52,004 nt of DNA from contig JAAUZZ010000005.1 in assembly GCA_014804345.1 (NCBI GenBank), positions 1 to 52,004 of the forward strand, given 5' to 3'. Position 1 is the stretch's first letter, and every line of letters begins with the position of its first letter. The notes under the pieces were generated by a model. That model saw nothing but the letters and a program-made list of their open reading frames with translations. It searched no databases and was not told the origin of the DNA. Positions 27,437 to 42,162 of the stretch are shown piece by piece. Source of the DNA: Lachnospiraceae bacterium. GTDB taxonomy: Bacteria > Bacillota > Clostridia > Lachnospirales > Lachnospiraceae. The position numbers were made by a program, and so were the translations under genes.

Positions 27437-28195
27437 ATGAAAGGAAGAATACATTCACTGGAATCTTTTGGAACGGTTGACGGACCGGGCGTGCGCTATG
27501 TCGTTTTTGTACAAGGCTGTCCGATGCGGTGCGCTTACTGTCATAATCCCGACACATGGGAGATGAACGGAGGCACATTAATTGAAACCGATGAAATCCT
27601 TGAAAATTATGAGCGCAATAAACCCTACTACCGCGAGGGCGGCATTACGGTCACGGGCGGAGAGCCGCTGATGCAAATAGATTTTTTATTGGAGCTTTTC
27701 ACAAAGGCGCATGCGCGCGGTATCCACACATGCCTTGACAGCTCCGGTATCGCCTATAAGCCCAACAACAACCCCGAATGGCTTGCAAAACTTGACAAGC
27801 TCTGCGAAGTAACGGACTTGGTAATGCTTGATATCAAGCACATTGATCCCGAAAAGCACAAAGACCTTGTCAAACAGCCAAACGACGGTATTCTCGCGTT
27901 TGCCGAATATCTCGATAAAATGGGTGTTGATATGTGGATCCGTCATGTGGTTGTCCCCGGAATCACAGACGATCCGGAAGATCTGCGCAGACTCGGGTAT
28001 TTTATCGGCGGTTTGAAAAATCTCAAAGCGCTTGATGTACTGCCCTATCACACCATGGGCAAGAAAAAGTACAAAGAGCTTGGCATGGAATACCGTCTTG
28101 AAGATGTCCCCGATATGGACAAAAATAAAGTTCCGGAGTTAAAGCAGTATATTCTTAACGGAATCAAAGAACGCCGCGGACTGCCTATCAAATGA
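27437..28195 (+). CDS. pflA: Pyruvate formate-lyase activating enzyme
   Basis: A 252-residue radical SAM enzyme that places the glycyl radical on pyruvate formate-lyase. The iron-sulfur motif C-x3-C-x2-C is seen in QGCPMRCAYCHNPDTW, ITVTGGEPLMQ is the SAM-binding GGE motif, and the C-terminal LDVLPYHTMGKKKYKELGMEY is typical of PflA. The length is normal. Its target would be the free glycyl-radical subunit at 38653-38892, encoded 10.5 kb away rather than adjacent. GGAGG precedes the ATG. A ferredoxin gene follows and could supply the reducing electron. Confidence 0.96.
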   Translation: MKGRIHSLESFGTVDGPGVRYVVFVQGCPMRCAYCHNPDTWEMNGGTLIETDEILENYERNKPYYREGGITVTGGEPLMQIDFLLELFTKAHARGIHTCLDSSGIAYKPNNNPEWLAKLDKLCEVTDLVMLDIKHIDPEKHKDLVKQPNDGILAFAEYLDKMGVDMWIRHVVVPGITDDPEDLRRLGYFIGGLKNLKALDVLPYHTMGKKKYKELGMEYRLEDVPDMDKNKVPELKQYILNGIKERRGLPIK

Positions 28196-38607: not shown

Positions 38608-38636
38608 AAATCCCCGAGGACAAGCCTCGGGGATTT
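38608..38636 (-). terminator. Terminator of the pfl operon
   Basis: AAATCCCCGAGG and CCTCGGGGATTT form a perfect 12-bp stem with a five-base loop, followed on the minus strand by TTTG, 17 bases past the glycyl-radical subunit gene. Confidence 0.93.
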
Positions 38637-38652
38637 CATATTTTTCTGATAA

Positions 38653-38892
38653 CTAGATTGCCTCATGGAATGTACGAGAGATAACGTCTGCCTGCTGCTC
38701 CGGTGTCAACTTGATGAAGTTTACAGCGTAGCCTGAAACACGGATTGTAAGCTGAGGATAGTTCTCAGGATGCTTCTGAGCATCTAACAATGTGTCTCTG
38801 TTAAGTACATTTACATTAAGGTGATGTCCACCCTTTGTTGCATATCCGTCCAATAAAGATACTAAGTTATCAACCTGTGCTGCGTTGTCCAT
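38653..38892 (-). CDS. Free-standing glycyl-radical subunit of pyruvate formate-lyase (GrcA-like)
   Basis: A 79-residue protein equal to the C-terminal domain of pyruvate formate-lyase. It contains [40 protein letters not shown] and ISRTFHEAI. Gly54 in RVSGYAV is the residue activated to a radical. In ordinary enzymes this domain is part of the same chain. Here the large subunit upstream stops before it. E. coli GrcA and phage T4 Y06I are known free versions, used there as spare parts. AGGAGG precedes the ATG. It is the last gene of the operon and the presumed PflA substrate. Confidence 0.9.
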
Positions 38893-38922
38893 TTTTCATA
38901 CCTCCTAAAAATTTAATAATAT

Positions 38923-39126
38923 TTATTGATCGTCCAATCCCTCGTGCAGCGTCGGAACACTGCATGCCATCGGATTGGCGGAACAGTCTGTACATCCGAG
39001 AGTTTCAACCTCTTTTGTAGAAGAACCTTCTTTGACATCTACGTTGAAATGTCCCACAGCCTTATCTTTGGAAAATCCCGCATCAAGCTGTGCCACAAGG
39101 TCATCAATCATTGATTTCTCATCCAT
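38923..39126 (-). CDS. Small cysteine-containing protein resembling the start of the glycyl-radical domain
   Basis: A 67-residue protein between the two pfl parts. Its first 31 residues (IDDLVAQLDAGFSKDK, GHFNVDV) align with residues 7-29 of the glycyl-radical subunit ([22 protein letters not shown]), keeping D-x-LV-x2-LD and GH-x-NV-x-V. The rest differs: instead of the Gly-radical loop it has a tail with three cysteines, LGCTDCSANPMAC. It is not recognised as a named family. It might bind the core in place of the radical domain, for example in assembly, storage or protection from oxygen, but this is speculation. GAGAGG precedes the start. Confidence 0.75.
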   Translation of the reverse strand: MDEKSMIDDLVAQLDAGFSKDKAVGHFNVDVKEGSSTKEVETLGCTDCSANPMACSVPTLHEGLDDQ

Positions 39127-39154
39127 AGATTACACCTATTCCTCTCTATCGTAA

Positions 39155-39185
39155 GGCAACTGTAAAGTGCGCCTCTACAGTCGCC
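39155..39185 (-). promoter_or_regulatory. Intercistronic hairpin between the pfl core gene and the small Cys protein gene
   Basis: On the minus strand GGCGACTGTA pairs with TACAGTTGCC (one G-U pair) around 11 bases. No T-run follows, so it is unlikely to be a full terminator. It may set the ratio of core to small subunits through mRNA processing or stability. Confidence 0.65.
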
Positions 39186-39206
39186 TTCCTACTGCAAGTA
39201 CATAAA

Positions 39207-41246
39207 TTATTTGTTCAAGTCAAGCTCGATATCTCCTGAGAAGACCTTTGCTTCCTTACCAAGAGCGTTCGGAATGATTGTAAAGGTATTTGAGATACCG
39301 TCCTGTGCATCCTTAAACGGAAGTTTTGATACAGATGACAGTGAAGCGACTGCACCATGAGTATCACGTCCGTGCATCGGGTTAGCGCCCGGAGCAAACG
39401 GCTGTCCCTTCTTACGTCCGTCAGGTGTGTTACCTGTAGCCTTACCATAAGTTACGTTAGATGTAATTGTAAGGATTGAAGTTGTAGGGATACCGTTTCT
39501 GTAGGTATGATGTCTTCTTACAGCTGTCATAAATCTATGAACAACGTCCTGCGCGATCAAGTCAACGCGGTCATCATCATTACCATATTTCGGGAACTCA
39601 CCTGTTGTCTCGAAATCAACGATGATTCCGTCCTCGTCACGGATCGGCTTAACCTTTGCATACTTAATTGCTGATAAAGAGTCAGCAACGATTGAAAGTC
39701 CTGCAACACCCGTAGCGAAATATCTCTTAACATCTCTGTCATGAAGAGCCATCTCTGCTCTCTCATAGCAGTATTTATCATGCATATAGTGAATGATATT
39801 CAGTGTATTTACATACACATCTGCCTGCCACTCCATCATATCGATGAATTTTGCAAATACATCATCATAATCAAGCACATCGCCTTCTACAGCGCGATAC
39901 TTCGGTCCAACCTGTTTCTTTGTTACTTCGTCTACACCGCCGTTTAAAGCGTACAGCAAGCACTTTGCAAGGTTTGCACGAGCGCCGAAGAACTGCATTT
40001 CCTTACCAACAACCATTGAAGATACGCAGCAAGCGATTGCATAGTCATCGCCGTGTGTTACTCTCATGAGGTCGTCGTTCTCATACTGGATTGAAGAAGT
40101 CTGGATAGACATCTTTGCGCAGTATTTCTTCCAGCTCTCAGGAAGTCTTGTAGACCAAAGAACTGTTAAGTTCGGCTCAGGTGAAGGTCCGAGGTTTGTA
40201 AGCGTATTTAAGTAACGGAATGACATCTTTGTAACAAGAGGACGTCCGTCTACGCCAACGCCGCCGAGGGACTCTGTTACCCATACCGGATCGCCTGCGA
40301 AAATCTGATTATACTCAGGTGTACGCGCAAACTTAATCAGACGAAGCTTCATAATGAAGTGGTCAACAAACTCCTGAATCTGCTCCTCTGTGAATGTTCC
40401 GTTCTTTAAATCTCTCTGTGCATAGCAATCAAGGAATGTAGAAGTACGTCCAAGTGACATTGCAGCGCCGTTCTGCTCCTTAACTGCACATAAATAACCA
40501 AAGTAAGTTGCCTGAATAGCCTCTTTTACGTTTGTAGCCGGCTTTGAAATGTCACATCCGTAAGATGCTGCCATTTCCTTCATCATCTTCAACGCTACCA
40601 TCTGCTCTGAGATCTCCTCACGAAGACGGATAACATCATCTGTCATAACGCGTCCCGTAGAGTCCTTCTGATCCTGCTTATCCTCGATGAGTCTGTCGAT
40701 ACCGTAAAGAGCAACTCTTCTGTAGTCGCCGATGATACGTCCACGACCGTAAGCATCGGGAAGACCTGTGATAATGTGTGAAGAACGGCATGCTCTCATC
40801 TCCTGATTGTAAGCGTCAAAGCAGCCTGCATTATGTGTCTTTCTGTGTGTAGAGAAGAATTCGCTAATCTCGGGATCTACTTCATAGCCGTTGTCAGAAC
40901 AAGCTTTCTCTGCCATTCTGATACCGCCGTACGGCTGTAAAGAACGCTTAAAAGGCTTATCTGTCTGGAAACCAACGATTGTTTCCTTGCTCTTGTCAAG
41001 GTATCCGGGACCATGAGAAGTAATCGTAGAGATTACCTTCGTATCCATATCCAATACGCCGCCTGCTTCTCTTTCCTTCTTCTGAAGGTCAAGAACCATT
41101 TCCCATAAATCCTTTGTGTTCTGTGTAGGTCCGGCTAAGAAAGACTCATCACCGTCATACGGAGTGAAATTCTTCTGAATGAAGTCACGTACGTTAATTT
41201 CGCTTTCCCATTTGCCACCTACAAAATCTGTCCATTCTGGTCTCAT
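39207..41246 (-). CDS. pflB: Pyruvate formate-lyase catalytic core lacking its glycyl-radical domain
   Basis: A 679-residue formate C-acetyltransferase core that, once activated, turns pyruvate and CoA into formate and acetyl-CoA. The catalytic pair Cys406-Cys407 is in [48 protein letters not shown] and [20 protein letters not shown] are family motifs. The chain stops after [20 protein letters not shown], just where normal enzymes of about 740-760 residues continue into NLVSLLDGY...VSGYAV. That part is encoded two genes downstream. The stop is followed by an intergenic region with its own signals, so this is not a simple frameshift. AGGAGG precedes the start. Confidence 0.95.
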
Positions 41247-41284
41247 TTTGCAATGCCTCCTAATAATATAATTTAATTTTTTAT

Positions 41285-41370: not shown

Positions 41371-41400
41371 ATTATAGCCTCAATTTTGTATACACGTCAA
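41371..41400 (-). promoter_or_regulatory. Promoter of the pfl operon
   Basis: Minus-strand TTGACG (41395-41400), 18 bases, TATAAT (41371-41376); strong sigma-A type. Confidence 0.8.
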
Positions 41401-41967: not shown

Positions 41968-42162
41968 ATGGCAGAAATAACAAAGGATATGACAATCGGC
42001 GAAATTTTGCGGACAAACCCTGACGTTGCTCCGATTTTGATGAATGCGGGAATGCATTGTCTTGGATGCCCTTCCGCACAGGGCGAAACATTAGCAGAAG
42101 CTGCAATGGTGCACGGACTCGACGCAGACGCGCTGATGTCTGAGATTGCGAAGCTTTCGTAA
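41968..42162 (+). CDS. DUF1858 domain protein
   Basis: A 64-residue protein made entirely of a DUF1858 domain: [56 protein letters not shown]. The CLGC pair in this domain is suggested to be redox-active, and the family is linked to hybrid-cluster or disulfide chemistry in anaerobes. Function is not established. AGGAGG lies before the ATG and a strong terminator follows, so it is monocistronic. Confidence 0.93.

Follow-up and report, generated by a model that had tools for sequence, protein, structure and literature searches.

Three consecutive genes on the minus strand of a 52,004-nucleotide stretch of Lachnospiraceae DNA (hereafter the window) encode separate proteins related to pyruvate formate-lyase (PFL). 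The pflB core, the catalytic part of PFL, lies at positions 39207..41246 (679 amino acids (aa); matches to TIGR01255 and PF01228). It is followed after 80 nt by a middle protein, mid, at 38923..39126 (67 aa), which combines a half resembling a radical domain with a cysteine tail and has no glycyl motif, and then, after a further 30 nt, by the separate glycyl-radical subunit GrcA3 at 38653..38892 (79 aa; matches to NF038360 and to positions 51–106 of PF01228). Open reading frames and profile matches confirm the separate core, cysteine protein and radical protein proposed at these coordinates in the initial annotation. Each piece has its own start, as had also been proposed; the claim that each has a ribosome-binding site of its own stands, on reading of the sequence, for the core and GrcA3, both preceded by AGGAGG (41256..41261 and 38901..38906, minus strand), whereas the corresponding region of mid, GAGAGG ... 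TAGGTG (39133..39146, minus strand), is weaker.

A 12-bp inverted repeat with a T run on both sides lies directly past the GrcA3 stop codon (38608..38636) and is likely to be the operon terminator; the repeat is listed on the plus strand, and the T run of the minus strand was taken from the sequence itself. Upstream of the core, TTGACG-18-TATAAT (41371..41400, minus strand) agrees with a sigma-70-like promoter at 11 of 12 positions, as a consensus match only. The gene for the PFL-activating enzyme, a radical SAM protein (27446..28147, plus strand; TIGR02493, 296.2 bits against a cut-off of 231.75), is on the same contig, outside the operon of the split pfl. Divergent from this operon and upstream of it lies a gene for a DUF1858, or hybrid-cluster-protein-associated redox disulfide, protein (41968–42162, plus strand).

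The core and GrcA3 correspond to consecutive parts of a conventional PFL. Residues of the core cover positions 2–665 of the 744 in TIGR01255 at 1096.4 bits, above the cut-off of 994.2, so that the core alone scores as a member of the family. Its catalytic cysteine pair is present in the sequence ACCVSS, starting at residue 405, and CCVSS is found in all 59 full cores compared. The adjacent catalytic cysteines of Escherichia coli PFL are C418 and C419. The glycyl-radical residue is in another chain, as the profile match stops at position 665 and the radical half is a separate gene. The core had been described as ending right after ALG without a radical loop; the loop is indeed missing from its 679 residues, but 16 residues come between ALG and the stop codon. 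The Gly_radical model PF01228 (106 positions) is cut within the domain, with positions 1–50 on the core and 51–106 on GrcA3. The 79-residue protein passes NF038360, ‘autonomous glycyl radical cofactor GrcA3’, at 160.9 bits against a cut-off of 158; that name is silent on a truncated core and on mid. Its glycyl motif, RVSGYAV, in which the glycine is Gly54, is found in 79 of 79 relatives. When compared with E. coli PflB (PDB 1h16; TIGR01255), core residues 4–668 align to residues 10–680 and the GrcA3 profile to residues 682–759; the cysteine pair and the SGYA motif are common to both systems, but the E. coli enzyme is one chain and the PFL of the window two or three. At the level of sequence, these matches show a core that lacks the radical loop and a radical domain that is a separate, conserved protein.

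With mid as the query, the best 80 of 96 relatives were taken for a comparison of loci. The core was found in 78 of these, mid in 80 and GrcA3 in 79, and no locus was fused; the three-gene order is conserved in 77 loci, and the three incomplete loci are all at contig ends. Among the genomes not labelled as metagenome-assembled are Lachnospiraceae bacterium COE1, A4 and 1xD42-87. Mid occurs in each of the three frames relative to the core (26, 21 and 14 of 61 loci), and GrcA3 in each of the three relative to mid (36, 23 and 20 of 79 loci); the intergenic gaps range from 14 to 198 nt and from 13 to 690 nt, respectively. Between the window and 11 of these loci (10 in the case of the core), dN/dS is 0.022–0.054 for the core, 0.055–0.134 for mid and 0.010–0.081 for GrcA3, which points to purifying selection on all three genes. 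A small tandem duplication is present in two loci (L102 and L111), where part of the 3′ end of the core recurs between core and mid (in L102 as VFSGD.EIDLNN, for instance). In one further locus (L035, from genome G270), the mid gene is positioned after GrcA3 and not before it, which indicates that the gene order can change.

The separate radical subunit had been proposed to be obligatory, and this is supported as far as the genomes examined go. Apart from this locus, the window's own assembly (2.1 Mb, 76% complete) is free of Gly_radical and PFL-like matches at E≤0.001. Among 38 congeneric genomes, 18 of which have a completeness of 90% or more and a contamination of 5% or less, GrcA3 is found in all 38, a full-length match to mid in 33 (counted from search rows) and a core match in 31 (E≤1e-60), including 17 of the 18 best genomes; seven genomes have no core match at that threshold. 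In none of the 38 was a fused PFL found: all core matches break off before the part of the profile that holds the radical, and those that extend furthest reach positions 681 and 690 by reading through one stop codon. Three of the genomes have a weak match to the GrcA3 profile in a long frame (64.8–84.4 bits; 718–870 aa) that is not a PFL at E≤1e-60; these are presumably other glycyl radical enzymes.

At least two GrcA3 matches of at least 150 bits are found in 26 of the 38 congeneric genomes (counted from search rows). Nineteen GrcA3 loci were read in the genus, nine of them with no adjoining core. As judged by eye, six of these nine follow a Crp/Fnr-type regulator (L066, L072–L075 and L078), five of them with groEL before it; no such regulator precedes GrcA3 in L064 and L069, and L071 is cut. 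Genes resembling NfeD and SPFH proteins, also named by eye, lie downstream of GrcA3 in L064, L066, L069 and L078.

The distribution of the split was surveyed in 120 Lachnospiraceae genomes, one per genus, with a PFL threshold of E≤1e-100. PFL was found in 93 genera: 48 have a match extending to the end of the profile, 41 have a truncated core (window included), two have both and six are unresolved. Thirty-nine of the 41 genera with a truncated core have no intact PFL at this threshold. With the window's own core set aside, the remaining 40 truncated cores have a separate GrcA3 downstream in all 40 cases and a fused domain in none. In a sample of 291 genomes of the class, the GrcA3 cut-off is passed in at least 16. 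The 18 split loci read in this sample (window included) comprise nine with a mid gene, six with a cysteine tail on the core and three with neither. A quick tree of 99 cores, many of them partial rows, has a starred branch with 60 rows on one side; these include every split core but L050, together with four fused PFLs nested among them. One of the nested fused PFLs (L174) keeps the cysteine tail as a linker before the radical domain, and the other three (L168, L169 and L175) have a short linker. The minimum number of changes on this tree is at least four between split and fused and at least seven between mid and tail, label counts being slightly off as L035 is marked ‘none’ despite its mid gene after GrcA3. 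The simplest reading of the tree would be an old split, followed by later re-fusions.

Two explanations would deny that the split is a working arrangement. An assembly or sequencing error, or a programmed frameshift yielding one fused protein, is refuted by the data: nothing was found in its favour, the identical break recurs in many assemblies, and the varying frames and core–mid gaps are explained by neither a frameshift nor a sequencing error, which bears out the initial statement that a single frameshift cannot account for the break. According to the other explanation, the truncated core is a decaying gene and GrcA3 a mere spare for an intact PFL encoded elsewhere in the genome. It draws on the NCBIfam name, which is that of an autonomous cofactor, on the incompleteness of the window's own assembly and on the two of 41 truncated-core genera that also have an intact PFL. 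It is at odds with the conserved gene order, with core dN/dS values of 0.02–0.05 and with the lack of a fused PFL in the 38 congeneric genomes; we regard it as very improbable and already largely refuted. The search for an intact fused pfl elsewhere, by which the proposal was to be checked, has found none in the own assembly or in the genus. Sequencing error, frameshift and a decaying gene were rejected on the conserved order, dN/dS, the congeneric genomes and the reading frames.

Searches with the middle protein gave no match in Pfam or NCBIfam at E≤10 and nothing credible among the solved chains of the PDB (best E 0.1), and no name or description of it was found in these three collections. 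Over its first ~30 residues, mid can be aligned to the N-terminal part of GrcA3 (hhalign probability 93.4, E 2.5e-7, 30 columns). A search of the 291 genomes with the mid profile yielded 36 matches at E≤0.001. Nine of them are mids; of the other 27, 26 fall on radical domains (seven encoded separately, 19 within long frames where a radical domain is located) and one elsewhere. A model of mid tested on 58 loci matches GrcA3 with its positions 1–33 in all 58. The possibility that mid is an unrelated small protein was rejected on these three lines of evidence, its first half being radical-domain-like. From the alignment of GrcA3 to E. coli PFL, this half would correspond to the stretch before the radical loop, including barrel strand 10 as assigned in PMC8683613; a helix presumably precedes the strand in this stretch. 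AlphaFold predictions were uninformative, with a pLDDT of 42.3 for a chain of core, mid and GrcA3, and of 58 for mid alone, with one helix only. One alignment of the chains was replaced, as the mids had aligned onto GrcA3 in it.

In place of the glycine loop, the mid of the window has a cysteine tail, C-x2-C-x6-C (Cys 45, 48 and 55). The same pattern is present in all 80 near-relative mids, 74 of which have three cysteines and six four. Two cysteines, C48 and C55, belong to the invariant residues in an alignment of 12 mids, and the core tails likewise have two cysteines at some of their few positions without variation (alignment of 20 of the 22 tails). Cysteine spacing is variable among mids and tails, and several lineages have only two cysteines; L201 and L207 keep only C-x2-C. 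Of the 22 tailed cores, 10 are matched by positions 45–65 of the mid model, the scores being low (8 to 24 bits), and the mid profile has no match on the other 12. In the 40 family loci, 23 have mid with no core tail, 16 have a core tail (at least two cysteines) with no mid in the stretch read, none has both and one (L230) has neither, giving a Fisher P of 2.7e-10 with kinship ignored and the loci not independent. This distribution suggests that, where mid is missing, the core's own C-terminal cysteine tail usually takes its place. No cysteine element was found in the stretch read at L230, L038, L045 and L050.

A second small protein (~82–100 aa) weakly matches the first half of mid (20–26 bits) at four loci (L375–L378), one of which is in the window's own genome (L375, C21:191620–191736). 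Its C terminus reads GRCDVGSPWA...CD, and in three of the four loci read it adjoins, upstream, a 423-aa gene that resembles hisS by eye. The one copy scanned had no Pfam or NCBIfam match.

GrcA3-like genes also occur on contigs of viral collections, where 12 contigs were found with the protein of the window and 66 with a contig's own protein; the viral scan gave no match for mid and none for the core of the window. An IMG/VR contig of 109813 b (L281/L289) encodes a whole split PFL, with a 680-aa core and GrcA3 and no mid or cysteine tail, near a phage-type DUF3310 gene; as an ECF-transporter-like gene follows, the purity of this contig is unsure. The core of L282/L288 is interrupted by at least one in-frame stop codon, GrcA3 adjoins the anaerobic ribonucleotide reductase gene NrdD and a radical-SAM gene in L284, and L280 is another viral-collection contig with a GrcA3-like gene.

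Separate small proteins with the same radical loop as GrcA3 are known in YfiD/GrcA (PDB 6owr) and in Y06I of phage T4. Those proteins serve as spares for a cleaved intact enzyme, whereas beside GrcA3 no intact enzyme was found, either in the 76% complete own assembly or in the 38 congeneric genomes. YfiD has a disordered first half of 60 residues (PMC8683613); GrcA3, with 79 aa and a profile that aligns to PFL from residue 682, has no such half. The closest solved chains to the core are two named ‘Formate acetyltransferase’, 38la_A and 38lb_A (1096.7 and 1130.5 bits). Chain 38la ends at about ALGK, and 38lb reads ECDMCE just after this point and has no radical domain by the GrcA3 profile; judged from their sequences, they probably represent a split core of the tail type, 38la without the tail and 38lb with it. 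Adding 38lb to the tree lowered the number of starred branches from 45 to 39, and its position is not settled. The resemblance of both chains to a split core implies that another group has probably worked on one. No mid-like chain was found among PDB sequences, and a search of an open literature collection that lacks most subscription journals and bioRxiv listed no paper describing a naturally split PFL. The split is therefore partly known already, through the NCBI name GrcA3 and these two PDB chains. The initial annotation had noted neither this name nor the origin of mid and the distribution of the split. Overall, the system would work like PFL plus GrcA, yet it departs from PFL in not being one chain and from GrcA in not being a spare for an intact enzyme.

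Extrapolating from the chemistry of the E. coli enzyme, GrcA3 would dock on the core and supply the last barrel strand and the radical loop. The PFL-activating enzyme would charge GrcA3, and the radical would then be passed in trans to the cysteine pair of the core. After oxygen has cut the glycine, a new GrcA3 would replace the broken one, with which the second grcA3 copies elsewhere in the genus fit. In E. coli, residues 696–733, which are left on oxygen-cleaved PFL, are required for the binding and activation of YfiD, and YfiD binding to a core cut at residue 695 is not detectable (both from PMC8683613), so that a split core must have a docking solution of its own. A radical supplied in trans works in E. 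coli, where PflB with the G734A exchange makes formate if GrcA is present (PMC12338860).

We tentatively suggest that mid guards the radical site as a docking mimic. Its first half would copy the part of GrcA3 presumed to join the barrel, with the cysteine tail replacing the glycine loop; mid would fill or mark the vacant radical site on the core, protect it and pass it on to GrcA3, in a role parallel to that of E. coli residues 696–733, by which the spare part YfiD is recognized. Stated more fully, and with similar reserve, the enzyme could be a three-subunit PFL with mid as a decoy radical domain that has a docking half and a cysteine pair and no glycine loop. Seated in the vacant radical site of the core, mid would control how a replaceable glycyl-radical subunit is loaded and exchanged; each PFL dimer might contain one mid and one GrcA3, and the cysteine part would have moved between a separate gene and the core tail several times.

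Other roles for mid can be accommodated within a real split PFL. Mid or the cysteine tail might act chemically: a pair of thiols could quench the glycyl radical, or sense oxygen through a disulfide switch, and shut the enzyme down before oxygen cuts it. The two cysteines among the few invariant residues of mids and core tails speak for such a function, and their variable spacing is easier to reconcile with free thiols or a disulfide than with a rigid metal site; on the other hand, the radical-domain-like first half of mid is left without a reason, and some split PFLs have no cysteine element, which makes this role somewhat unlikely. 4-Hydroxyphenylacetate decarboxylase and benzylsuccinate synthase have small cysteine subunits, and by analogy mid might be a stable structural or metal-binding accessory subunit. 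A small cysteine protein encoded beside a glycyl radical enzyme, with three cysteines in 74 of 80 mids and four in six, is what this analogy leads one to expect; yet several lineages have only two cysteines at variable spacing, and the library and PDB searches described above detected no credible similarity of mid to cysteine-cluster small subunits or to any other solved chain, so an accessory subunit appears improbable. An obligatorily split pyruvate formate-lyase formed by the core and GrcA3, with exchange of GrcA3 and, as its more tentative part, mimicry by mid, is the best combined explanation of the locus, and probably the right one.

PFL is a central enzyme of anaerobic fermentation, important to many gut bacteria, and becomes inactive once oxygen cuts its radical loop. 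In about four in ten of the PFL-bearing Lachnospiraceae genera sampled (41 of 93), this fragile loop is on a separate protein, so that oxygen damage could cost ~80 residues and not the whole enzyme. The natural three-protein system offers a direct test bed for the way in which a spare radical domain locates its enzyme and inserts into it, and mid, unnamed in the libraries searched, has a role that can be tested. By keeping the oxygen-sensitive radical piece separate, the cell may be able to swap the fragile part of the enzyme.
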